Both the position numbers and the translations under genes were made by a program. A DNA stretch of 33,933 nt from an uncultured Deferribacteraceae bacterium. Its GTDB lineage: Bacteria; Chrysiogenota; Deferribacteres; Deferribacterales; Mucispirillaceae. The stretch lies in the NCBI GenBank assembly GCA_947039395.1, contig CAMQYS010000022.1:1-33933 (forward strand), read 5' to 3'. Of this stretch, positions 11,622 to 33,617 are shown piece after piece; the first letter of the stretch is position 1, and the number at the start of each line of letters is the position of its first letter. The notes under the pieces are model-generated. The model saw only the letters and a list, made by a program, of their open reading frames with translations, was not told the origin of the DNA and did not search any database.

Positions 11622-11647
11622 TAGAGAGGAAAAATCCTCTCTACAAT
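11622..11647 (-). terminator. Rho-independent terminator
   Basis: TAGAGAGGA and TCCTCTCTA (11622-11630 and 11635-11643) form a perfect 9-bp stem with a 4-base loop. Read on the minus strand it is followed by TTTTG, so it suits the small secreted-protein gene that ends at 11742. It could also slow transcripts coming from the DUF302 gene, but the plus-strand side has no U tract. Confidence 0.65.
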
Positions 11648-11741
11648 GTATACTCTATTTAATATAATTTTAAATCAAATCTATGTAAACAAGCAAACTT
11701 AATACATAAAGCAACTAAACTCCATAGATTAAACTAATTGA

Positions 11742-12053
11742 TTAATAATCCCTATACGGACCATCAACCTCACCCGTACAGATATCAACTATAAAAACTA
11801 GATCAGCACCCCAACCTTGTTTCTCTGCTTCAATTTTATAAACAGTATACTCAATATCGACATCTTCAATATAATATTTTGGATATTTTGTCTTCAATAT
11901 CTGTTGTACCTTATTTATCGCAACATTATACTCTACTTTCTTGCCATCTGGACAAAAAGCAGCGGCACTTTGATACTTCATATAGTCATCATCTGCAAAA
12001 ACAACACCTGTAACCAATAAAGAAAACATAACTAACATTAATATTTTTTTCAT
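11742..12053 (-). CDS. Small exported protein, possibly PepSY-like
   Basis: This 103-residue protein starts with a clear signal peptide (MKKILMLVMFSLLVTGVVFA, then DDD). The mature 80 residues contain a helix (about residues 44-56, NVAINKVQQILKTKYP) followed by three strands. These end in GADLVFIVDICTGEVDGPYRDY, a helix-then-hairpin order reminiscent of PepSY or beta-lactamase-inhibitor-like folds. That similarity is only structural guesswork from the pattern. Two Cys residues in the mature part (in FCPDGK and DICTGE) could form a disulphide in the periplasm. GGAGG lies about 9 bases before the ATG. Transcription likely ends at the hairpin at 11622-11647. Confidence 0.65.
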   Translation of the reverse strand: MKKILMLVMFSLLVTGVVFADDDYMKYQSAAAFCPDGKKVEYNVAINKVQQILKTKYPKYYIEDVDIEYTVYKIEAEKQGWGADLVFIVDICTGEVDGPYRDY

Positions 12054-16124: not shown

Positions 16125-16245
16125 CTATTATAATATAAAATATCTACTATGTTTCATATAGCATACTGCATATATATTTCTATACTTACCATGAAGTTAA
16201 CTAGATATATATGATGTAAAATACATAAAATTGAAAAATTATTAG

Positions 16246-16274
16246 TTGACTAAATTAAGATATATGCGTAAAGT
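16246..16274 (+). promoter_or_regulatory. Predicted sigma70-type promoter for the leader/PfoR-like operon
   Basis: TTGACT (16246-16251), a 17-bp spacer and TAAAGT (16269-16274) match the -35/-10 consensus at 5/6 and 4/6 positions. Transcription would begin about 30 bases ahead of the short leader ORF at 16313. That is the geometry expected for an attenuation-controlled leader RNA. Confidence 0.5.
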
Positions 16275-16312
16275 GTGATTAACAAAATTAAAGGATTAAG
16301 GACAAGGAATAA

Positions 16313-16402
16313 ATGATAACAAATATCTACAACATGTATTGGTGGCAAACGTTATTAAACTTATTCATGCTAAAAGGAGCAATGTCCGTGCATTCTAATT
16401 AA
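16313..16402 (+). CDS. Leader peptide with tandem Trp codons (trp-attenuator type)
   Basis: This 29-codon ORF is preceded by AAGGA (16304-16308). Codons 9-13 read Tyr-Trp-Trp-Gln-Thr, with the two TGG codons adjacent at 16340-16345. Trp is otherwise rare in a peptide of this size, and adjacent Trp codons are the hallmark of trp-type leader peptides. The ORF sits between a predicted promoter and a Rho-independent terminator (16452-16480). GCTAAAAG inside the ORF (16369-16376) is exactly complementary to CTTTTAGC of the terminator (16460-16467). A ribosome stalled at the Trp codons would leave this segment free to disrupt the terminator. Regulation by tryptophan is inferred and the elements are visible. 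Confidence 0.65.
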   Translation: MITNIYNMYWWQTLLNLFMLKGAMSVHSN

Positions 16403-16451
16403 CTAAAATTATAATTATTAATTTATAATTATTTATAGATAGTAGATACCA

Positions 16452-16480
16452 ACGTAGAGCTTTTAGCTTTACGTTTTTTT
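16452..16480 (+). terminator. Rho-independent terminator/attenuator ahead of the PfoR-like gene
   Basis: ACGTAGAGC (16452-16460) pairs with GCTTTACGT (16466-16474), giving 9 bp with one G-U, closed by a TTTTA loop and followed by an uninterrupted T tract to 16480. It lies between the leader ORF and the PfoR-like gene, with no complete gene before it in this transcript. It therefore looks like an attenuator rather than an end-of-operon signal. Confidence 0.8.
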
Positions 16481-16530
16481 ATGTTTATTTTTATAGTATA
16501 TAATAAATATTTTATGAAGGAGATAAGGTT

Positions 16531-17592
16531 ATGTCGAATATTATGTCAAAAGAAGAGGTTAAAGTGTTCATCTATAATATACTGAACGGCTTAGGAATGG
16601 GGGTAATATTCGCATTAATCCCAGGTGTGCTTATAGGTGAGATAATGAGGATATTTATAGATGTACTCCCTTATGCAAATGAGGTATTAGCTATCACTAC
16701 AATATCAACAAGAATTATGCCTGCAATAATCGGTGTATGTATTGCGATGCAATTTAAATTCTCACCTATGGCTACAGTTTCAATCGGTGCTGCAACGATA
16801 ATAGCATCAGGTGTTGCAACATTTAATTCAGATAGCACTTTTACTCTAGCTGGAACTGGCGATGTTATAAACTCTCTAATAACTGCTACAATCGCTGTTC
16901 TAATCGTAAAATTATTAAATAAACGATTTCGTTCAATTCAAGTTATCATACTACCGATAACTGTGATATTAGTAGCAGGAGGGATAGGTACATTACTGCT
17001 TCCTTATGTATCATTAACGACTGGTTACGTTGGAGAAATTATAGTTCTTTTTACAACTCTGCAACCGACGTTAATGTGTATTTTAATTGCAATGTCGTTC
17101 TCTGTTATAATTGTAACTCCGATATCAACAGTTGGATTAGCACTAGCCATTGAGCTTGCAGGAATAGGAGCAGGTGCTGCCAATTTAGGTGTTGTTGCCT
17201 CATCGTTCGGACTTGGAGTGGCTGGGCTTAAAGTTAATAATTTCGGTATCGTGATATCTCACTTTATAAGTTCTCCTAAAATGCAGTTAGCAAATTTTGC
17301 AAGAAAACCAACAATCATATTGCCTACCCTATCAATTGCAGCAATCTTAGGATTTATATCAAGCTTTATAGGTATAAAAGGAACATCGCTTAGTGCAGGG
17401 TTCGGACTTGCAGGGTTTATAGGGCCTATTAACGCTTTTAATTTTATGGACTATAACGCAGTAAATAAAATTATGATAATAACAGTAATGTACTTTATAC
17501 TTCCACTTATTTTAGCCTTTATATTCAAGTATATATATATGAACAAAATGGAAATTATTTCATCAGAAGACTATAAAATATATCTAGATTAG
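16531..17592 (+). CDS. PfoR/PTS_EIIC_2-like integral membrane protein
   Basis: This 353-residue, very hydrophobic protein has roughly 9-10 predicted membrane spans and many Gly/Ala/Ile-rich segments. It resembles the family known as PfoR or PTS_EIIC_2 (putative transport proteins related to PTS IIC domains). The N-terminus KVFIYNILNGLGMGVIFALI, GIGAGAANLGVVASSFGLG in the middle and the motif GFGLAGFIGPINAF near the C-terminus are typical. No IIA/IIB phosphorylation domain is present or nearby, so a PTS mechanism is doubtful. A strong AAGGAG ribosome site precedes the ATG. The Trp-rich leader peptide and terminator upstream suggest control by tryptophan. By inference it could import tryptophan or a related compound, but the substrate cannot be read from the sequence. 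Confidence 0.75.
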   Translation: MSNIMSKEEVKVFIYNILNGLGMGVIFALIPGVLIGEIMRIFIDVLPYANEVLAITTISTRIMPAIIGVCIAMQFKFSPMATVSIGAATIIASGVATFNSDSTFTLAGTGDVINSLITATIAVLIVKLLNKRFRSIQVIILPITVILVAGGIGTLLLPYVSLTTGYVGEIIVLFTTLQPTLMCILIAMSFSVIIVTPISTVGLALAIELAGIGAGAANLGVVASSFGLGVAGLKVNNFGIVISHFISSPKMQLANFARKPTIILPTLSIAAILGFISSFIGIKGTSLSAGFGLAGFIGPINAFNFMDYNAVNKIMIITVMYFILPLILAFIFKYIYMNKMEIISSEDYKIYLD

Positions 17593-17657
17593 TAGAATAA
17601 TTGGGGTAATATATATCATACGACGGCAACAATATAAAAAGTTTTAGGAGATAGATT

Positions 17658-18653
17658 ATGAAAATAATTATGTATTCAGTAAGAGATTATGAGAAAACAG
17701 CTATAAAATTAGCAGAGAATAAATTCAATATAGTTTTAACAAAATGTTCAGATCTTTTATCGCTAGAGAATGTACATCTAGCAGAGGGGCACGACTCGGT
17801 TATTTTCACAGGAAACTGTAATGTAGGGGATACGATTTTAGAGAAACTTTCATCGTACAATATAAAATATGTTACAACAAGAACAGCAGGTTACGATAAT
17901 ATAGATCTACAAACGTTAAAGAGATTAGGTATGAAATCAGGACACGTTCCACGATACTCTCCAAACGCAATATCTGAGTTTACTGTTCTATCAATTTTAG
18001 CTATTTTGAGAAAGTATAATGTTATGTTAAGTAGAGTTGATAAACAAAATTATTCATTAAGTAACAATATAGGTAGAGAGATCAGAAATATGAGTATAGG
18101 TATAATCGGTGCAGGAAGAATAGGTTCAAAAGTTATAGAAATCTTAGACGGGTTTAGACCTAAAAAAATCTACGCAAACGATATAATAGAAAGTAAAGAG
18201 GTAGAGAAGTATGCAACATACTCATCACTTGAAACCGTTTTAAAGATGAGTGATATTATAACTCTACATACAAATCTAACAGACTCAACCTATCATATGA
18301 TAGATAAAGAGAGCATTAAACTTATGAAAGATAATGTTGTGATTGTTAATACTTGTAGAGGTGGAGTTGTAGATACAGAGGCTGTGCTTGATGCTATAGA
18401 TAGCAAGAAAGTATCAGGATATGCAACAGATGTTTATGAGCATGAAAAAAATATCCTTCATTATAATCTAGAGGGGAAAACTATCAATGATCCATTATTC
18501 AATAGGTTAAAAAATAACGATAAGGTTATTCTATCTCCACATTGTGCATTTTATACAGATCAAGCCGTTGAAAATATGATTGAATATTCTATAAAAAACA
18601 TCTATGATTATATTGAAATCGGTAATTCTGAAAATAATATTACAATCGATTAA
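17658..18653 (+). CDS. D-2-hydroxyacid dehydrogenase (D-lactate dehydrogenase/VanH-like)
   Basis: This 331-residue NAD-dependent enzyme reduces a 2-keto acid to the D-2-hydroxy acid. The Rossmann motif is GIIGAGRIGSKV (about 148-159). The catalytic triad is visible as Arg in NTCRGGVVDTEAV, Glu in TDVYEHEK and His in SPHCAFYTDQA. The segment RYSPNAISEFTV and the overall layout are closest to D-lactate dehydrogenases and VanH. No VanA-type ligase lies nearby, so glycopeptide resistance is not implied. It follows the PfoR-like gene by 65 bp with its own AGGAG site and is probably in the same transcript. The substrate could be pyruvate or an aromatic keto acid, which the sequence alone does not settle. 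Confidence 0.88.
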   Translation: MKIIMYSVRDYEKTAIKLAENKFNIVLTKCSDLLSLENVHLAEGHDSVIFTGNCNVGDTILEKLSSYNIKYVTTRTAGYDNIDLQTLKRLGMKSGHVPRYSPNAISEFTVLSILAILRKYNVMLSRVDKQNYSLSNNIGREIRNMSIGIIGAGRIGSKVIEILDGFRPKKIYANDIIESKEVEKYATYSSLETVLKMSDIITLHTNLTDSTYHMIDKESIKLMKDNVVIVNTCRGGVVDTEAVLDAIDSKKVSGYATDVYEHEKNILHYNLEGKTINDPLFNRLKNNDKVILSPHCAFYTDQAVENMIEYSIKNIYDYIEIGNSENNITID

Positions 18654-18664
18654 AGGACTTAGAT

Positions 18665-19246
18665 ATAACATTACGTAATTATATTTTTGCAGTGGGTGTA
18701 ACTTGTATATTAGTACTTATCTCTACTGCGTTCATATACTCTAAGAGTAATACGCACGATGCAAAAGTTACCTTTCTAGGTGATGATGAGTATCTTACTG
18801 AAATAGTTAAAGATATCTATAACGCAAAAAAATCTGTATATTGTGGCAACTATATGTTTAAACTTGATGAAGAGTTAATAGGTACACCTAAAAATGAACC
18901 TGTCGCATTAATCGCTCATGCGTTAGTTAAGACTAAAGAGAACGGTGTAGATGTTAAACTATTGCTAGATATAGAGAAAGAAACAGATAGACTTAGTAGG
19001 TATAATACAAAAACAGCTGATATACTTAATAAGCATAATATTGAAATCTATTTTGATAGTAGTAAGAAAAGATTTCATCCTAAAATGTGTGTTATAGATA
19101 ATGATATCGTCTATATAGGTAGCCATAATTTCACATACTCTGCTATGAAAAGAAATAATGAGGTATCAGTAAAAATTATATCAAAAGATATAGCAAAAGA
19201 TAGTATAGAGTACCTTAACTTGATAGATAAAAAACTTTACAAATAA
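18665..19246 (+). CDS. Single-HKD phospholipase D-type protein, membrane-anchored
   Basis: The protein has an N-terminal hydrophobic anchor and one HKD catalytic motif, HPKMCVIDNDIVYIGSHNFT (H-x-K-x4-D, then GSxNFT). This is the Nuc-like form that normally acts as a dimer on DNA or phospholipids at the membrane or in the periplasm. The obvious start, GTG at 18692, has no ribosome site and would cut into the hydrophobic segment. AAGGA (18653-18657) instead sits 7 bases before an ATA codon at 18665. That start would give a basic N-region (ITLRNY, initiator read as Met) and a full anchor of about 20 residues. I therefore give 18665 as the likely start, with a rare AUA initiation codon, and 18692 as the conservative alternative. 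The gene follows the dehydrogenase stop directly. Confidence 0.75.
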   Translation: MTLRNYIFAVGVTCILVLISTAFIYSKSNTHDAKVTFLGDDEYLTEIVKDIYNAKKSVYCGNYMFKLDEELIGTPKNEPVALIAHALVKTKENGVDVKLLLDIEKETDRLSRYNTKTADILNKHNIEIYFDSSKKRFHPKMCVIDNDIVYIGSHNFTYSAMKRNNEVSVKIISKDIAKDSIEYLNLIDKKLYK

Positions 19247-19352
19247 GAATTAATTTTATATTTTAAAGATATAGAATTAGAAAATATAATACATAATTAA
19301 TAGTGCCATAGTTTTATTATGAACGCAATAAAGTTACAGATAGGAGAAGTTG

Positions 19353-20000
19353 ATGTTTGGACCTAACCCTAATCATATATACCCGAACCCTAAATACAAA
19401 TCGATTGTTTTTTTAAAAAACATAGTAAAAAAACCAAATATAGTTGTTGGAGATTATACATTTTATTCATCAGAGAAAGAGTGTCCCACCCAGTTTGAAC
19501 GACACGTTACTCATCATTACGACTGGGTTGGTGATAAATTAATAATAGGCAAATTCTGTGCAATCGGCGAAGGGATAGAGTTTATCATGAACGGAGCAAA
19601 TCACCGTATGTGTTCTATCACAACCTACCCGTTTGATATACTTGAAAGTGGCTGGGAACTTAGTAAACCTGATTATCCTATTATGCCGTTTAAAGGCGAT
19701 ACTGTGATAGGTAACGATGTATGGATCGGTCAAAATGTAACTATCTTACCAGGTATTAAAATAGGAGATGGTGCAATCTTAGGAGCTGGATCACTTGTTA
19801 CTAAAGATGTAGAACCGTATACCATTATCGGAGGTAATCCTGCAAAAGCTATACGCAAAAGGTTTACTGATGAAAGAATTGAGTATCTGCTTGATGTTAA
19901 ATGGTGGGACTGGGATATAGAAAAAATATCTAAGAACCTTAACTTACTATGTAGTTGCGATATTAATGTTGTTCAAAAAGGCGATATCAAACCTAAATAA
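19353..20000 (+). CDS. Vat/CatB-type xenobiotic acetyltransferase (left-handed beta-helix)
   Basis: This 215-residue hexapeptide-repeat acetyltransferase is similar to streptogramin A acetyltransferases (VatD) and CatB. Clear family markers are MFGPNPNHIYP at the start, IGKFCAIGEG, and IMNGANHRM containing the presumed catalytic His. Next come the hexapeptide coils GNDVWIGQNVTILPGIKIGDGAILGAGSLVTKD, then IIGGNPAKAIRKRF and VKWWDWD. It would transfer an acetyl group from acetyl-CoA to a hydroxyl of a small molecule, but whether that is an antibiotic is unknown. AGGAG (19342-19346) fits the ATG at 19353 better than the TTG at 19350. The VatD resemblance suggests possible exchange with Gram-positive gut bacteria. 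That is an inference. Confidence 0.87.
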   Translation: MFGPNPNHIYPNPKYKSIVFLKNIVKKPNIVVGDYTFYSSEKECPTQFERHVTHHYDWVGDKLIIGKFCAIGEGIEFIMNGANHRMCSITTYPFDILESGWELSKPDYPIMPFKGDTVIGNDVWIGQNVTILPGIKIGDGAILGAGSLVTKDVEPYTIIGGNPAKAIRKRFTDERIEYLLDVKWWDWDIEKISKNLNLLCSCDINVVQKGDIKPK

Positions 20001-20090
20001 TTTACACTTGGTGAAACAACAATTATAGATTATCTATACAACATTTAAGATACTCTTTTAAACGATAAATATATTGGTTATAAGAATAAA

Positions 20091-20655
20091 ATGAATATAC
20101 CAAAAGAGAGAAAAATAAAACTATTACTCTCAATAGAAGAGGCTGTGAAACTTTTTTAGATCAACATAAGAACTTACAGTTTTACTGTTTCACATTTGAT
20201 TGCAACGTTGCATACAGTATGATACTCATCTGTTTCAATACAGAAGAGTACTCTGATAAAACATTAATACATTATCAAAACTCATATAAAAATGGATCTA
20301 AATAATATAAAGATATTCTAGAAAAAGAGTACGATAAAGAGTTTATAGTATATACTGCGTATCAATCAGATAAAGCTGTTATAGATTTGAAGTATAATAC
20401 AGGGGACTTCAAGTATTCATGTTTTAAAACATTTTATAAGATTATTGATAAAAATATAGAAAGTTATAACGATAAGTATGAATGCATAGATGCAGAAATT
20501 ACTATGAAATTTAATTATAAATTACTAAACGAGTTTGCCAAACTGATACTTTTAAAAGTATTCCAACAACAGAAGATTTTAGAGTCCTTTGCATAGATCA
20601 CAATGTAGAGGTTAAAGATGTAATGGAACGAACAGATAAATATATAACATACTGA
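20091..20655 (+). pseudogene. Decayed DUF4303-like gene (two frameshifts, one internal stop)
   Basis: Reading across frames gives one continuous protein of about 190 residues. It starts MNIPKERKIKLLLSIEEAVK at 20091 and meets TAG at 20157. One base lost from the T tract at 20152-20157 restores the frame to LDQHKNLQFYCFTFDCN. A TAA at 20303 interrupts after NGSK, and the same frame continues YKDILEKEYDKEF and KYNTGDFKYSCFK. Near 20541 one missing A shifts the frame again before DTFKSIPTTEDFRVLCIDHN and the end at 20655. The FYCFTFDC, NTEEY, GDFKY and IDHN segments resemble DUF4303 proteins, related in role to immunity-type proteins. The intact 69-codon frame at 20387-20596 is only a fragment of it. 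The gene is inactive unless the frameshifts are sequencing errors. Confidence 0.8.
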
Positions 20656-20793
20656 TAAAAACAATCTAAATTATCACCTAATCTATACTTATAAATATTA
20701 ATTACTCTCTATTAGATACTCTTATCATACCGATATGATTTAATTGGTATTGGTTTTGCTAAGATACACTTGAGAATATATTTTAGGTGTACT
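20656..20793. other. Intergenic region upstream of the LRV-repeat gene
   Basis: TACC (20729-20732) and GGTA flank an AT-rich stretch as a weak dyad. I see no strong promoter pair. AGGTG (20785-20789) serves the ATG at 20794. Confidence 0.4.
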
Positions 20794-23653: not shown

Positions 23654-24979
23654 ATGTCAAGAATACCAAATTTAGTTTATGCTGATGAAGATGGAAGTAT
23701 ATATCCTCATCCATATTTGAAAATGTCTGTACGTTCTGGTACCTATGATATGCTCCCATATGATACAGAGTTGATTAAGCTTCCACCATCATCAAGACTC
23801 TATTTCCTACCATTTACAACAGCTGTAGCTTATGATGAAAATAAATCTACTATGGTGGACTTTAATGAAGGGTTAGCTGTATCCGTTTTTCTTCCACCAG
23901 GTTATCTACGTTTATTTCTGCCAAGTTATAAGAAAAAAACCGACTATACTATGCCTCTTTTTGCATACACTGCTGTTGGAGAATTAGATGGCGATCTTGT
24001 TGTGCCTGCCATAAAAGTTGATGATGATTCTCATTGGCGTCCATCATTATACGATTTTAGTGATAATTTTGAAAAAAAAGTAGATGAGTTTTTAAGTAAA
24101 GTAAATAAAAATAATAGATTATATGAACAACTTAAAATATGTGCATTAAAGTATCATTGTACCGCTGCAAAAAATGTATTCTATCCTAGATGGGAGTGTC
24201 CCATTCCTACATCTCCATCGTGTAACGCTAACTGTGTAGGGTGTATATCTTTACAAACAGCCGAGAGTTGTGTCTCTTCACAAGATAGAATAAATTTTAT
24301 CCCAACAGCAACTGAGATAGCTGAAGTTGCATTAAACCATCATGAAATAGCTAAAGATCCGATTATATCTTTCGGACAAGGCTGTGAAGGCGATCCGATA
24401 CTTCAAACTGATATTATAGTTGAGGCTGTGAAGATCATTAAAAAAGCTGTGCCAAATCTTACTGTAAACTTTAACTCAAACTGCTCTATACCTGAAAATA
24501 TCAATAAATTAATCAATGCAGGTGTTGATAGTTTTCGTGTATCTACCATATCCTTTATAGATGATACTTATAACGCATATTATCGTCCACGTAAATATAC
24601 TATTGAAGATGTTAAAAAATCTATGGGTTTAATTAGAGATGCTAATAGATATTTACAGATAAATCTTCTTACTTGTCCTGGACTAAACGATAGAAACTCT
24701 GAAGCTGATGAACTTATAAATGTTGTGAAAGAGTATAAAGTAAATCTAATACAAACAAGAAATCTAAATATAGATACAAACCTATTATTCAGTAAGTTAG
24801 CTGTTAAATCTGATGAAATATACGGTATAAAAAATATGTTAAAAAGAATAAAAAAAGAATCTCCAACGACATTATTCGGATACTTTAATAGAATGAAAAA
24901 AGATTTTAATAAAGATAGAATGCTTCCAGATTTAAGGACTAAGAGATATGTCTCTGAAGACGCTCGTAAAAATATATAA
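23654..24979 (+). CDS. Radical SAM protein of unassigned subfamily
   Basis: This 441-residue protein has an N-terminal domain of about 185 residues (MSRIPNLVYADEDGSIYPHP, a family-conserved opening as I recall from Deltaproteobacteria and Deferribacteres). The radical SAM core follows, with SCNANCVGC (C-x3-C-x2-C, about residues 190-197) binding the 4Fe-4S cluster that cleaves S-adenosylmethionine. Downstream core features are ISFGQGCEGDP (the GGE-like SAM motif), NFNSNCSIPE, DSFRVSTIS and LLTCPGLNDR. The substrate is unknown. The gene overlaps the following MnmC-like gene by 32 bases, a conserved pairing in my recollection, so a role in tRNA or translation-related modification is plausible but unproven. 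Confidence 0.85.
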   Translation: MSRIPNLVYADEDGSIYPHPYLKMSVRSGTYDMLPYDTELIKLPPSSRLYFLPFTTAVAYDENKSTMVDFNEGLAVSVFLPPGYLRLFLPSYKKKTDYTMPLFAYTAVGELDGDLVVPAIKVDDDSHWRPSLYDFSDNFEKKVDEFLSKVNKNNRLYEQLKICALKYHCTAAKNVFYPRWECPIPTSPSCNANCVGCISLQTAESCVSSQDRINFIPTATEIAEVALNHHEIAKDPIISFGQGCEGDPILQTDIIVEAVKIIKKAVPNLTVNFNSNCSIPENINKLINAGVDSFRVSTISFIDDTYNAYYRPRKYTIEDVKKSMGLIRDANRYLQINLLTCPGLNDRNSEADELINVVKEYKVNLIQTRNLNIDTNLLFSKLAVKSDEIYGIKNMLKRIKKESPTTLFGYFNRMKKDFNKDRMLPDLRTKRYVSEDARKNI

Positions 24980-25646
24980 AGATAAAAAAATCATAAGAAC
25001 TAGTGATGGTTCTTTTACATTATACTCATCTACATACAATGAAAGTTATAAGACAAAATCTACTGGTGCTTTTACTGAAAGTTATCATAAATTTATCAAA
25101 CAATCAAATATAGCTGAAAGATTAAAAGATAAAGATATACGAATTCTAGATATATGTTTTGGGTTAGGACAAAATATAGCAACAACTATTCATGAAGTTG
25201 AAAAATACGATCTAAATAACAAACTTCATATCGTATCTATAGAACTTGATCCTCATTTAATAGAAATCGTTAAATCATTATATATTTTATCACCCGTAAA
25301 ATCATACTCTATAGTAAGAGAACTACTTAATAATGGATCGTATAGAAATTACTCACTTGAACTATATATTAGCGATCTACGAGATATTTTATATAATCTA
25401 ACAGGTAAATTTGATATCATTTACTTCGATCCATTTTCAAAAAAACATAACCCAGAACTATGGGAAATACAGGTTTTTAAAAGACTTTACGACCTTCTAG
25501 AAGATGATGGATATATGATGACATACGCCTCATCAAAAATAATTACCGAAGATTTAAAGTCAGTAAATTTTAAAGTAGAAAAAATAAGTTCTATAGGTAG
25601 CAGACGACACCCAAGTATCAGATTATATAAAAATATCGATCAATAA
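24948..25646 (+). CDS. MnmC-like SAM-dependent methyltransferase (DUF752 type)
   Basis: This 232-residue Rossmann methyltransferase resembles the methyltransferase half of MnmC, which completes 5-methylaminomethyl-2-thiouridine at the wobble position of tRNA. The opening TSDGSFTLYSSTYNESYKTKSTGAFTESYHKF matches the DUF752 start. SAM binding is ILDICFGLGQNIA (about 65-77), and the active-site segment is YFDPFSKKHNPELWEIQVF (about 158-176), with LEDDGYMMTYASS near the end. It lacks the FAD oxidase domain of enterobacterial MnmC, so it is a stand-alone methyltransferase. It starts 32 bases inside the radical SAM gene and so is translationally linked to it. Confidence 0.85.
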   Translation: MSLKTLVKIYKDKKIIRTSDGSFTLYSSTYNESYKTKSTGAFTESYHKFIKQSNIAERLKDKDIRILDICFGLGQNIATTIHEVEKYDLNNKLHIVSIELDPHLIEIVKSLYILSPVKSYSIVRELLNNGSYRNYSLELYISDLRDILYNLTGKFDIIYFDPFSKKHNPELWEIQVFKRLYDLLEDDGYMMTYASSKIITEDLKSVNFKVEKISSIGSRRHPSIRLYKNIDQ

Positions 25647-28824: not shown

Positions 28825-30828
28825 TTAATTTCTTACTATGTAACACCTTTGCGATGTAACACCTTTACTTTTTAAATATTTTACTACATCTGTATTTTTC
28901 TCATCTAAAGCATACATCAACGCAGTATAACCTTTTCTATTCATTAAATTCATATCTGCCTTATTTTCTACTAGATATTTTACAACTGTAAGATGTCCAT
29001 TTTCTGAAGCATATATCAATGCTGTAGAACCATATCCATCTGGTGTATTTATATCTGCACTGTTCTCTACTAGATATTTTACAACTTCTATATGTCCACC
29101 AAATGATGCCTCGATTAACGCTGTCAAACCGTTTCCATCTTGTGTATTTATATTCGCACCGTTCTCTACTAGATATTTTACTACATCTAAATATCCTTTA
29201 AGTGAGGCTGTCATCAATACACTCTCTCCACTATTATCTTCTACATTAACATCTGCTCCGTTTGATACAAGATATTTTACTACACCTAAATGTCCATTAC
29301 GTGAAGCCCGTATCAATGAGGTATCACCAGCTTCATATCGAGCATGAACATCTGCTCCGTTATCTACTAAATATTTTACTATCTCTAAGAACCCATCACC
29401 TGATGCGTATATCAATGCAGAAAAACCGTCTCCACTTTGCATATTTAAATCTATTCCGTTATCAACAAGATATTTTACTACTTCTAAATTTCTATTAAAT
29501 ACTGGATGTATCAACGCTGTAGAACCGTCATTATTCTTTAAATTAAGATCTGCTTTATTTTCTACTAAAATTTTTACCACTTCTATATGTCCACGTGCTG
29601 AAGCAAATATCAATGGTGTCCACCCATCATAATTTTTAACATTAAGATCTGCTCCTTTCTCTATTAAATATTTTGCCACATCTATATGTCCATTACGTGA
29701 AGCTAACAACAACGCTGTAGAACTATACCCAGTCTGAATGTTTATATCTGCTCCCTTCTCAACTAAATATTTTACTATATTTAATTTCCCATCATCTGAT
29801 GCAACTGTCAATGCTGTAGCACCGTTCTTATTCTGTATATTAACATCTGCTTTGCGATCTATTATAGATTTTATTAGTTCTAAATCCCCGTTATAAGAAG
29901 CAAGTATCAATACTGTATCACCGTTTTTATCTTGAAGATTAATATCGGTATTCTTTGATATAAGATATTTGACGATCTCATCATATCCTCCGTCTAGTGC
30001 ATATCCTAATGCTTTCTTACCGTTATTATTCTCTAGTTGAATATCTGCTCCGTTCTCTACTAGATATTTTACAACTTCTAAATTTCCTTGCCATGTAGCA
30101 AATATTAACGCTGTAAGACCATTATTATCTTTGAGATTACTATCTGCTCCATTTTCCATTAAATATTTAACTATATCTAATTTTCCATAAACTGAAGCGT
30201 ACCCAAGTGCTGTCCACCCCTCTTCACTTTGTATGTTAACATCTGCACCATTATCTACTAAATATTTTACTAATGCTAGATTTCCATAGTAACTTGAAGC
30301 ATTCATCAATGGTGTAAAACCACGATCTGTCTTAAAATTAATATCTGCACCACTTTCTACTAAATATTTAACTGTCTCTAAATTTCTACTTTCTGAAGCA
30401 GTCATCAATAAATAATTCATATAAGCAGGACTCATATCTGTATCTTTTGATATAAGATATTTTACAACTTCTATATGTCCATTAGCTAAAGCATACATTA
30501 CTGCTGTATAATCATAATTATTTACTATATTAATATCTGCTCCGTTCTCTACTAGATATTTTACGACATCTATATGTCCATGCTCTGAAGCTTGCATCAA
30601 TGCAGTAGACTCTTCGGGGTATGACTCCTCATACTCTGAATCATCAGGGTAATTGATAGAATTGATACATACCCCTTGCTCTACTAAATATTTTACTCTT
30701 TCTAAATTTCCACTACTAGACGCTTCAAATATATCTTCCGTATTTTCTGGCTCTTGCCCATAGCTTATACTACTAATCAGCAATAAAGTTGTTATAATGA
30801 GTATCCCTAGTTTTTGGATGTTAAACAT
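28825..30828 (-). CDS. Exported ankyrin-repeat protein A (about 18 repeats)
   Basis: This 667-residue protein has a signal peptide (MFNIQKLGILIITTLLLISS, then ISYGQ, probable signal peptidase I site). It continues as ankyrin repeats of 33-34 residues almost to the C-terminus, each with the pattern G-x-T-A-L-x-x-A-S-x-x-G-x-L-x-V-V-K-Y-L-V-E-N-G-A-D-I-N. The protein should form an extended solenoid in the periplasm or outside the cell and bind other proteins, but no partner can be named. The last residues (after LKSKG) come from a 16-bp tandem duplication that shifts the ending compared with its paralogs. The ATG at 30828 has the strong site AAGAGGGGAAAT. It shares a 321-bp near-identical segment with the next gene. 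Confidence 0.9.
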   Translation of the reverse strand: MFNIQKLGILIITTLLLISSISYGQEPENTEDIFEASSSGNLERVKYLVEQGVCINSINYPDDSEYEESYPEESTALMQASEHGHIDVVKYLVENGADINIVNNYDYTAVMYALANGHIEVVKYLISKDTDMSPAYMNYLLMTASESRNLETVKYLVESGADINFKTDRGFTPLMNASSYYGNLALVKYLVDNGADVNIQSEEGWTALGYASVYGKLDIVKYLMENGADSNLKDNNGLTALIFATWQGNLEVVKYLVENGADIQLENNNGKKALGYALDGGYDEIVKYLISKNTDINLQDKNGDTVLILASYNGDLELIKSIIDRKADVNIQNKNGATALTVASDDGKLNIVKYLVEKGADINIQTGYSSTALLLASRNGHIDVAKYLIEKGADLNVKNYDGWTPLIFASARGHIEVVKILVENKADLNLKNNDGSTALIHPVFNRNLEVVKYLVDNGIDLNMQSGDGFSALIYASGDGFLEIVKYLVDNGADVHARYEAGDTSLIRASRNGHLGVVKYLVSNGADVNVEDNSGESVLMTASLKGYLDVVKYLVENGANINTQDGNGLTALIEASFGGHIEVVKYLVENSADINTPDGYGSTALIYASENGHLTVVKYLVENKADMNLMNRKGYTALMYALDEKNTDVVKYLKSKGVTSQRCYIVRN
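30008..30328 (-). repeat. 321-bp segment duplicated in ankyrin gene B (copy 1)
   Basis: This segment of gene A is nearly identical to 31634-31954 of gene B. By eye I find only two differences (cttgaAgc/cttgaGgc and gtaaaAcc/gtaaaGcc). The flanking repeats are much more divergent. It encodes about three ankyrin repeats. Confidence 0.9.
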
Positions 30829-30900
30829 GATTTCCCCTCTTGATATAGTTATTAACTATTAGTTATTATGATCTATTATCTCATACCAATTTTTTAAGAT
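30829..30900 (-). promoter_or_regulatory. Conserved leader of ankyrin gene A
   Basis: On the minus strand the leader ends AACTATATCAAGAGGGGAAATC before the start codon, and further upstream reads AATTGGTATGAGATAATAG. The same arrangement precedes paralogs B and C: GAGGGG at 6-9 bases from the ATG, preceded by a TAACTAATAACTA block. GATAATAG is a possible -10 element. The conservation shows a shared promoter/5' leader. Exact promoter boxes are uncertain. Confidence 0.4.
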
Positions 30901-30916
30901 TTTTTACTTTGATAAC

Positions 30917-30946
30917 AAAAAACAGTCCCTAGCTGAGACTGTTTTT
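30917..30946 (-). terminator. Rho-independent terminator of ankyrin gene B
   Basis: On the minus strand AACAGTCTC, loop AGCTA and GGGACTGTT give a 9-bp stem followed by TTTTTG. It lies 23 bases after the stop of gene B. It is closely related to the terminator after gene A (same AACAGTCTC/GGGACT arms), so the terminator was duplicated along with the gene. Confidence 0.8.
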
Positions 30947-30969
30947 ATATATTTAATGTAACCAATTTT

Positions 30970-32553
30970 TTACTTTTTAGCACCTTTACTTTTTAAATAT
31001 TTTACTACATCTGTATTTTCCTCATCTGAAGCAAATTTCAACGCTGTTAAACCCTTTCTATTCTTTAAATTAATACCTGCCTTATTTTCTACTAGATATT
31101 TTACAACATCTATATGTCCATGTTCTGAAGCTTGCATCAATGCTGTAGAACCCTTTCTATCTCGTGTATTAATATATGCACCAGCTTCTATTAGATATTT
31201 TACCACATCGAAATATCCTTTTCGTGAAACCATCATCAACACAGTCTCGCCATCATGATCCTCTACATCAATACCTGCACCTTTTGATACAAGGTATTTT
31301 ACTACACCTAAATGTCTATTAAGTGAAGCCCATATCAATGAGGTATAACCAGCTTCATATCGAGCATGAACATCTGCTCCGTTCTCTACTAAATATTGTA
31401 CAACTGTAAGATGTCCCTTTCCTGAGGCATATACCAATGCTGTATAACCGTCTTCACATTGAAAATTAATATCTGCACCAGCTTCTATTAGATATTTTAC
31501 AATATTTAATTCTCCTTCCTCAGAAGCATACATCAACATTGTGTTACCGTTTTTATCTTGTACATTAACATCTTTATACTTTGAAATAAGATATTTTGCT
31601 ATCTCATCAGAGCCACCATCTAAAGTATATTCCAATGCTTTCTTACCGTTATTATTCTCTAGTTGAATATCTGCTCCGTTCTCTACTAGATATTTTACAA
31701 CTTCTAAATTTCCTTGCCATGTAGCAAATATTAACGCTGTAAGACCATTATTATCTTTGAGATTACTATCTGCTCCATTTTCCATTAAATATTTAACTAT
31801 ATCTAATTTTCCATAAACTGAAGCGTACCCAAGTGCTGTCCACCCCTCTTCACTTTGTATGTTAACATCTGCACCATTATCTACTAAATATTTTACTAAT
31901 GCTAGATTTCCATAGTAACTTGAGGCATTCATCAATGGTGTAAAGCCACGATCTAAATTAAAATTAATATCTGCACCATTTTCGATAAAATACTTAACTA
32001 AACTTAAACTTGCATCTTCGGAAGCAATCATCAATAAATAATTCATATAAGCAGGAGTTATATTTGTATCTTTTGATATAAGATATTTTACAACTTCTAA
32101 CCGTCCATTAGCTGAAGCCTTTGCCAATGCTGTAACCCCCCCATAAGTTTCTATGTTAATATCTGCTCCGTTCTCTACTAGATATTTTACAACATCTAAC
32201 TCTCCACTCTCTGAAGCATACATTACTGCTGTAGAGCCACCTTCATTTTTCATATTAATATCTGCACCGTTCTCTACTAGATATTTTACAACATCTAACT
32301 CTCCATGTTCTGAAGCTTGCATCAATGCTGTAAATTCTTCACTATAAGACTCCTCATACTGTGAAACGTTATAATCACTCAGAGAGTTAATATCTACCCC
32401 TTGCTTTAATAAATATTTTACTCTTTTTAAATTTCCCGAACTCGATGCTTCAAATATATTTTGTGTGTCTTGTGGCTCTTGCCCGTAGCTTATGCTACTA
32501 ATCAGCAATAAAGTTGTTATAATGAGTACCCCTAGTTTTTGGATGTTAAACAT
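30970..32553 (-). CDS. Exported ankyrin-repeat protein B (about 14 repeats)
   Basis: This 527-residue paralog of gene A has the same signal peptide (MFNIQKLGVLIITTLLLISS, ISYGQEPQDTQNIFEAS) and the same 33-34-residue ankyrin units to the C-terminus, which ends LKSKGAKK. Part of it (31634-31954) is almost identical at DNA level to gene A, while the surrounding repeats have drifted. Like A, it is expected to be exported and to act through protein binding. The order of repeats is not the same as in A, so units have been gained or lost. The ATG at 32553 has the conserved AAGAGGGGAAAT site. Confidence 0.9.
   Translation of the reverse strand: MFNIQKLGVLIITTLLLISSISYGQEPQDTQNIFEASSSGNLKRVKYLLKQGVDINSLSDYNVSQYEESYSEEFTALMQASEHGELDVVKYLVENGADINMKNEGGSTAVMYASESGELDVVKYLVENGADINIETYGGVTALAKASANGRLEVVKYLISKDTNITPAYMNYLLMIASEDASLSLVKYFIENGADINFNLDRGFTPLMNASSYYGNLALVKYLVDNGADVNIQSEEGWTALGYASVYGKLDIVKYLMENGADSNLKDNNGLTALIFATWQGNLEVVKYLVENGADIQLENNNGKKALEYTLDGGSDEIAKYLISKYKDVNVQDKNGNTMLMYASEEGELNIVKYLIEAGADINFQCEDGYTALVYASGKGHLTVVQYLVENGADVHARYEAGYTSLIWASLNRHLGVVKYLVSKGAGIDVEDHDGETVLMMVSRKGYFDVVKYLIEAGAYINTRDRKGSTALMQASEHGHIDVVKYLVENKAGINLKNRKGLTALKFASDEENTDVVKYLKSKGAKK
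31634..31954 (-). repeat. 321-bp segment duplicated in ankyrin gene A (copy 2)
   Basis: This is the partner of 30008-30328, aligned without gaps over 321 bp and differing at two positions by eye. The copies lie 1626 bp apart in direct orientation, which would allow deletion or gene conversion. Confidence 0.9.
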
Positions 32554-32617
32554 GATTTCCCCTCTTGTTATAGTTATTAGTTACTCTGATTTTATATTAT
32601 ATCTTCTCATACCAATT
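32554..32617 (-). promoter_or_regulatory. Conserved leader of ankyrin gene B
   Basis: On the minus strand it reads GAAGATATAATATAAAATC, then AACTAATAACTATAAC and AAGAGGGGAAATC before the ATG. TATAAT is a likely -10 element, but no good -35 was found. A remnant of the same block (ttttatattatatcttctcata) also lies downstream of gene A at about 28733-28754, which suggests a once-larger tandem family. Confidence 0.4.
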
Positions 32618-32621
32618 ACTA

Positions 32622-33617
32622 CTATTTAGCACCTTTACTTTTCAAATATTTTACTACATCTATATGTCCACTCTCTGAAGCTAGCATCAATGCTGTAGAA
32701 CCATATCTATCTTGTGTATTTATATCAGCTCCGTTTGACACTAAATATTTTATTACTTCAAAATTCCTACTAGATACAGCATTCATTAAGGCTGTGCCAC
32801 CATCTTTATTCTCAATATTAATATCTGCTCCGCTCTCTACTAAATATTTTACCATTTCTAAATTTCCATCATATGTAGCGATCCCTAAGGCTGTATGAAT
32901 ATCTGCTCCGCTATCTATAAGATATTTTACTACATCTAAATGCTCGTGATCGGAAGCCTCCATTAATGCTGTCCAACCGTCTTCATTCTCAACAGTAATA
33001 TCTGCACCCTTTGATACAAGATATTTTACTACTTCTAAATTGTTATATATTGAAGCATCCATTAATGCTGTCCAACCGTCTTTACGTTGAATATTAATAT
33101 CTACACCCTTTGATACTAAATATTTTACCGTTTCTAAATTCCCACCTATTGAAGCCGGCATCAATACCGTATTACCACTTTCACTTTGCATGTTAACATC
33201 TGCACCCTTTGATACTAAATATTTTACTATTTCAAAATTGCTAGATGAAGCACTCCACAATGCCGTAAAACCACCTGAACTCTTCATACTAACATCCGCA
33301 CCGTTCTCTACTAAATATTTAACTATCTCTAAATGTCCATGTTCTGAAGCATACGTTAAAGCTGCGGTACCATATTCATCTTTTTTATTCGTATCCGCAC
33401 CATTTGATACTAAATATTTTACTCTTTCTAAATCTCCACTACTTGACGCTTTAAATATATCTTCTGTGTTTTCTATATTTTTTGTGTTTTTTGTGTTTTT
33501 TGTATTTTTTGTGTTTTCTGTGTTTGTTGTGTTTGTTGTGTTTTTTATACAGCTTATACTACTAATCAGCAATAAAGTTGTTATAATGAGTGCCCCTAGT
33601 TTTTGGATGTTAAACAT
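32622..33617 (-). CDS. Ankyrin-repeat lipoprotein-like protein C (about 8 repeats)
   Basis: This 331-residue third paralog shares MFNIQKLGALIITTLLLISSIS with A and B but continues with Cys-Ile-Lys instead of Tyr-Gly-Gln. The SISC boundary resembles a (weak) lipobox, so C may be a lipoprotein while A and B are cleaved by signal peptidase I. After the Cys comes a low-complexity linker of Asn-Thr-(Thr/Glu/Lys) triplets (about residues 26-50). Ankyrin repeats of the same type follow, with some shortened or irregular units (for example the one containing DIHTALGIATYDG), ending LKSKGAK. It would be a shorter, membrane-tethered member of the family. Confidence 0.88.
   Translation of the reverse strand: MFNIQKLGALIITTLLLISSISCIKNTTNTTNTENTKNTKNTKNTKNIENTEDIFKASSSGDLERVKYLVSNGADTNKKDEYGTAALTYASEHGHLEIVKYLVENGADVSMKSSGGFTALWSASSSNFEIVKYLVSKGADVNMQSESGNTVLMPASIGGNLETVKYLVSKGVDINIQRKDGWTALMDASIYNNLEVVKYLVSKGADITVENEDGWTALMEASDHEHLDVVKYLIDSGADIHTALGIATYDGNLEMVKYLVESGADINIENKDGGTALMNAVSSRNFEVIKYLVSNGADINTQDRYGSTALMLASESGHIDVVKYLKSKGAK
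33474..33545 (-). repeat. In-frame 9-bp microsatellite coding the Asn-Thr linker of protein C
   Basis: On the plus strand the segment runs as repeats of TTTTTTGTG and close variants (TTTTCTGTG, TTTGTTGTG), each coding Asn-Thr plus Lys, Glu or Asn on the minus strand. Because the unit is 9 bp, copy-number change alters linker length without frameshift. Confidence 0.75.

Follow-up and report, generated by a model that had tools for sequence, protein, structure and literature searches.

Why does a short reading frame with two adjacent Trp codons, followed by a terminator, precede the gene of a PfoR/PTS_EIIC_2 membrane protein, and what could this arrangement say about the cargo of that protein? 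The question is raised by a stretch of 33,933 nucleotides (hereafter the window), contig 22 of a genome of 2.11 Mb; the named records closest to it belong to 'uncultured Deferribacteraceae' MAGs. Its genus was sampled through four genomes of this Deferribacterota lineage (G000–G003). Judged by conservation and modelled folding, a ribosome-mediated, Trp-specific transcription attenuator of the trpL type quite probably controls an operon of pfoR and a D-2-hydroxyacid dehydrogenase gene in this genus, which is predicted to be auxotrophic for Trp. The regulatory mechanism itself is already known; what is new here is the lineage, together with a target of unsettled function.

The leader and the genes behind it

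The 29-codon leader ORF with its pair of Trp codons, on which a preliminary description of the locus was built, is present in the window, and its peptide recurs, with the WW pair invariant, in each of the four genus genomes (Table 1). Over 180 bases, the leader DNA of the window genome is 95–97% identical to that of the other three genomes and its flanks diverge, compared with pairwise identities in the same genomes of approximately 84–91% for pfoR and 83–90% for the dehydrogenase gene. Where the amino acid is conserved, 21 of the 22 degenerate codons of the leader are invariant, as against 299 of 534 in pfoR and the dehydrogenase gene (Fisher p = 9e-5), which points to the RNA, and not the peptide alone, being constrained. 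Loss of the leader or of its Trp codons in related genomes had been named as the outcome that would speak against attenuation, and within the genus both are conserved.

Table 1. Positions of the features discussed; those with a locus label (L) lie in related genomes, all others in the window.
Feature	Position	Strand	Basis or remark
Promoter-like TTGACT-17-TAAAGT	16246..16274	+	Promoter scan; TTGACT invariant in 4 genomes
29-codon leader ORF, MITNIYNMYWWQTLLNLFMLKGAMSVHSN	16313..16402, stop included	+	Peptide kept in 4/4 genus genomes
Tandem Trp codons TGG TGG (codons 10-11)	16340..16345	+	Invariant in 4 genomes
Antiterminator strand (region 2), GCTAAAAG + ATGT	16369..16385	+	Pairing kept in four genomes despite partner changes
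Region 3, terminator 5' arm + loop, alternative partner of region 2	16451..16467	+	Complementarity, folding
Intrinsic terminator AACGTAGAGC-TTTTA-GCTTTACGTT + 7-T tract	16451..16480	+	Terminator scan; stem invariant, loop alone varies
PfoR/PTS_EIIC_2 membrane protein, 353 aa, presumed controlled gene	16531..17592	+	Pfam PF13303, 318.6 bits, residues 16-349
D-2-hydroxyacid dehydrogenase, 331 aa, presumed second operon gene	17658..18653	+	PF02826/PF00389
PLD-like short protein, directly after dehydrogenase gene	18692-19246	+	Conserved in genus
Vat-family streptogramin A O-acetyltransferase	19350-20000	+	NCBIfam 310.9 vs cut-off 300; counterpart downstream in four genomes
Radical SAM gene overlapping MnmC2-like methyltransferase gene	23654-25646	+	122.3 bits, below 136 cut-off
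Three consecutive long ankyrin-repeat protein genes (667, 527, 331 aa)	28825-33617	-	
WWW leader, trpE	L053:12879-12944	-	MEMEFKGFNFTASFWWWTLSE
WWW leader, trpE	L054:10942-11055	-	...LTAWWWTVTIS
WWW leader, trpE	L055:7029-7109	-	...NNAWWWTVNGIS
WWW leader, trpE	L056:6385-6441	+	MRRLIVFSRNWWWTTFRI
Leader + 372-aa gene + trpB, genus g3	L052 about 11640-11850	-	Likewise in L039 and L040
FMN riboswitch shortly upstream of ORF	L051:7503-7640	+	Same-family relative G004

A small WW ORF with a Shine-Dalgarno-like site and a terminator no more than 120 nt further on was found in no other case in 824,000 strand-bases, the background being approximately 0.41 Mb of stretches of the same genome, and a search for the WW-leader pattern across the four genus genomes returned background level only. 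The conservation in four genomes is stronger evidence than this chance test of the combination of elements. A covariance model of the leader (R1) matched in these four genomes only, and neither at other PfoR loci nor elsewhere in the order. The conservation looked for in the comparison of homologous loci proposed earlier is borne out inside the genus and not at the other PfoR loci examined. The leader is no general trait of the PfoR family, and because it was not found at those loci, it is informative on the role of PfoR in this genus and not in the family as a whole. As to the promoter proposed ahead of the leader, its TTGACT element is invariant in the four genomes, but promoter-like sites do not exceed the shuffle rate here (11 in the scan vs 11.3 in shuffles).

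The structure model of PfoR is of modest confidence (pLDDT 66), and a fold search against the PDB gave weak matches to PTS IIC proteins of the glucose superfamily (best E 2.7e-3), a hint of a PTS-IIC-like fold. No EIIA or EIIB domain was detected in PfoR or in the scanned neighbouring proteins. PfoR was found in all four genus genomes and in none of the other members of the family that were searched, with only one distant match (28%) elsewhere in the order. The PfoR/PTS_EIIC_2 family is nonetheless widespread, occurring on Enterococcus and Lactococcus plasmids and in Clostridium and Treponema. Our literature searches, which for PfoR mostly return pyruvate:ferredoxin oxidoreductase, yielded no experimentally assigned substrate.

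The dehydrogenase gene, which the preliminary description had missed, starts 65 nt after pfoR, and the two genes presumably form one transcript. Its product fits the D-LDH/D-HicDH branch in its Pfam domains and in its conserved catalytic Arg, Glu, and His regions, and its best solved relatives are (R)-2-hydroxyglutarate dehydrogenase, D-LDH, and D-HicDH. Within the family, an orthologue at comparable identity is found in this genus only. Identity as VanH was rejected (245.8 bits vs a cut-off of 540; no van-type genes among the scanned neighbours). Further along the window, approximately 770 bases (20000–20770) contain no ORF of 80 aa and may hold the remains of a decayed gene.

Terminator, antiterminator, and ribosome position

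The terminator lies between the leader ORF and pfoR and is the only terminator-like site within 16130–17700. Its tract of seven T's (16474–16480) agrees with the preliminary description; the stem (16451–16475) is slightly longer than the 9 bp given there, with 10 bp and a possible eleventh. The loop variants TTTTA, TTTTTG, and TTTTTA in the four genomes differ by an inserted T and by a change of A to G. The exact 8-bp complement to part of the terminator, also noted earlier, is present between GCTAAAAG (16369–16376) and CTTTTAGC (16460–16467), and is weak by itself, with equal pairing in 7% of exposed-strand shuffles. A second part of the antiterminator helix joins AUGU (16382–16385) to ACGU (16452–16455), and the duplex is retained in every loop variant (−9.6, −12.7, −12.7, and −13.0 kcal/mol). 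Evidence from covariation is thin, as only four closely related genomes are available. A further leader pairing, TATCTAC/GTAGATA, was discarded on being broken in G003.

With little charged tRNA-Trp available, the ribosome would stall at codons 10–11, leaving region 2 free to pair with region 3 (16452–16467); the terminator would then not form, and RNA polymerase would read through into pfoR. When Trp is ample, a ribosome on codons 17–27 would cover region 2, the terminator would form, and transcription would end. We infer that this switch works in the cell.

The leader was folded with a ribosome footprint placed at each codon in all four genomes, a simulation that yields predictions only and that came out much alike in the four. 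In it, the antiterminator is allowed with the ribosome up to codons 11–16 and blocked at about codons 17–27, which places the Trp codons where regulatory codons must be. When the Trp codons occupy the A site and the 3′ arm of the terminator is not yet made, the simulated antiterminator probability was 0.36–0.52 in the window and 0.73–1.0 in the other three genomes; it drops across codons 12–16, earliest in G002, and is close to zero at codons 17–26. At thermodynamic equilibrium, folding always favours the terminator, and the switch must therefore be kinetic. The model has two weak points: the antiterminator partly comes back once the ribosome sits on the stop codon, and no single conserved hairpin that could serve as the 1:2 pause hairpin was identified in the leaders of the four genomes.

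Rfam returned no family at E ≤ 10 in 16230–16540, Trp_leader and T-box included, and none in the whole window at the gathering threshold. A T-box or other known riboswitch was likewise sought and rejected in the window, beside related PfoR genes, and in the plasmid loci.

Tryptophan genes and trpE leaders in the order

A check for the loss of trp genes and for other Trp transporters had been recommended for this genome. The genes trpE, trpC (IGPS), trpA, and canonical trpB (TIGR00263) proved to be absent from all four genus genomes (93–98% complete), and no members of the SNF and Trp_Tyr_perm (Trp/Tyr permease) transporter families were found in the genus. A TrpB2-like enzyme is the sole trpB-type enzyme left, and no Trp leader is evident at its locus; the genus also has class I/II aminotransferases. 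On these searches, which covered trpE, trpC, trpA, trpB, and the two transporter families, the genus is predicted to be a Trp auxotroph.

Relatives in the Deferribacterales that retain trp genes carry small ORFs with three consecutive Trp codons (WWW) directly upstream of trpE, followed by strong hairpins with T tracts. These ORFs, which have no Rfam match, span four Deferribacterales families and are candidate trp attenuators. Since such leaders precede trpE in relatives, ribosome-mediated Trp attenuation is probably native to the order. The leader of pfoR likewise points to this form of regulation in the Deferribacterota, on which our targeted literature search returned no paper. The attenuator proposed in the preliminary description is thus backed from three sides, namely by conservation, by the simulated ribosome positions, and by the WWW leaders of trpE in the order.

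In genus g3, in genomes that lack IGPS and trpA, a gene of 372 aa and trpB are preceded by a conserved leader peptide whose end reads QYFSIYFWRSSVN or similar. For the product of the 372-aa gene, Pfam and NCBIfam gave no match and the PDB no significant one, and its assignment as TrpF is unsupported (hhalign probability 6.5).

Candidate cargoes of PfoR and known systems

The pairing of pfoR with a D-2-hydroxyacid dehydrogenase gene recurs in two Clostridium species and in Oceanivirga. In Gemella bergeri, Streptobacillus, and Lactococcus and Enterococcus plasmids, PfoR genes adjoin PanE/ApbA-type reductases, and PanE of L. lactis is a D-2-hydroxyacid dehydrogenase according to a reference cited in PMC7583248; the neighbour in Aerococcus is an alpha-ketoacid dehydrogenase operon. 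As two unrelated dehydrogenase families with the same type of substrate adjoin PfoR, its cargo is suggested to be a 2-hydroxy or 2-oxo acid. Import of Trp or a precursor by PfoR, as proposed earlier, is plausible, but the dehydrogenase points to an acid of this kind and not to Trp, indole, or anthranilate. The position aligned with Tyr52 of D-LDH is Thr in the dehydrogenase of the window and Leu in the Clostridium and Oceanivirga partners, and since Tyr52Leu shifts D-LDH towards larger, bulky 2-ketoacids (PMC5054688), a bulky side chain in the substrate is plausible.

A Trp-specific attenuator that governs the acquisition of a Trp source is the simplest account of the locus, and with a dehydrogenase accompanying pfoR, indolelactate/indolepyruvate is the most economical candidate. 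We tentatively infer that a Trp-derived 2-hydroxyacid, for example D-indolelactate, is what this operon brings into the cell. PfoR would import aromatic D-2-hydroxyacids that other microbes release, D-indolelactate would be oxidised to indolepyruvate by the dehydrogenase, and transamination would then give Trp. It is also conceivable, if doubtful, that Trp-attenuated salvage of Trp from D-indole-3-lactate has replaced trp biosynthesis as the Trp-regulated pathway of the genus. The combination of a Trp switch, predicted auxotrophy, and repeated pairing with dehydrogenases provides a concrete and directly testable hypothesis for the cargo of PfoR. If it is true, indolelactate, a metabolite of microbes that is attracting interest at present, would be a source from which some bacteria recover Trp.

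A serious rival, which we consider rather unlikely, concerns the substrate and not the switch: the attenuator would sense Trp, but the operon would import and oxidise D-lactate or another short 2-hydroxyacid, with Trp shortage acting as a general starvation signal. In Treponema pallidum, TP0037 has been shown biochemically to be a D-lactate dehydrogenase and the adjacent PTS_EIIC-like gene, TP0038, is proposed to encode a D-lactate importer (PMC7512555), and the top NCBIfam models of the window's dehydrogenase are D-LDH/VanH, though below their cut-offs. Such a specific leader with tandem Trp codons would be an odd general signal, however, and the Thr and Leu residues at the Tyr52 position argue, if only suggestively, for larger 2-ketoacids.

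It is improbable that the leader senses drugs, with any translation inhibitor that stalls the leader ribosome freeing region 2 and with the downstream Vat-type gene as the actual target, as in leaders of the bmrB type. Drug-responsive, ribosome-mediated attenuators do exist (BmrC/BmrD; PMC4191407), and the Vat-family protein scores above its NCBIfam cut-off and has a counterpart in all four genomes. Nevertheless, two further genes lie between pfoR and vat, as does a 103-nt gap that contains a TATAAT-like stretch in three of the genomes, and a generic sensor of stalling needs neither tandem Trp codons nor near-absolute codon conservation. The loss of trp genes and the WWW leaders of the order favour Trp instead.

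Even less probable is a catabolic role, in which free Trp is sensed in the manner of TnaC and high Trp switches on the export of D-indolelactate formed by transamination and reduction of Trp. D-2-hydroxyacid dehydrogenases often run reductively, as exemplified by L. lactis PanE (reference in PMC7583248), and the sequence of the leader peptide is conserved. In the simulation, however, region 2 is no more exposed by a stall near the stop codon than by one at the Trp codons, so that stronger activation of the operon is not predicted under this reading. The C-terminus of the leader (SVHSN before the stop) is also without the TnaC stalling motif. Finally, a chance assembly or a decayed trp-leader remnant without present function, which the 7% of shuffles equalling the 8-bp complement would allow, is very improbable in view of a leader that, across the four genomes, is better conserved than the genes next to it.

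Among known systems, the T. pallidum pair resembles the present operon in that a D-2-hydroxyacid dehydrogenase gene adjoins a PTS_EIIC-like (PfoR-type) gene, and differs in its proposed substrate, D-lactate, with no Trp attenuator mentioned in the available part of the source (PMC7512555). The trpE leaders of the Deferribacterales (L053–L056) share with the pfoR leader the order and the succession of a short Trp-rich peptide and hairpins with T tracts, but they have WWW near the C-terminus, trpE as target, and no covariance-model similarity to it. The trpL leader of E. coli (Rfam Trp_leader) is alike in its short leader ORF, tandem Trp codons, alternative antiterminator and terminator, and control by ribosome position. 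Unlike trpL, the present leader is longer (29 codons), has no Rfam match and no clear 1:2 pause hairpin, carries region 2 inside the leader ORF, 16–32 nt before the stop, and would control a transporter and a dehydrogenase instead of the genes of Trp synthesis that such switches normally precede.
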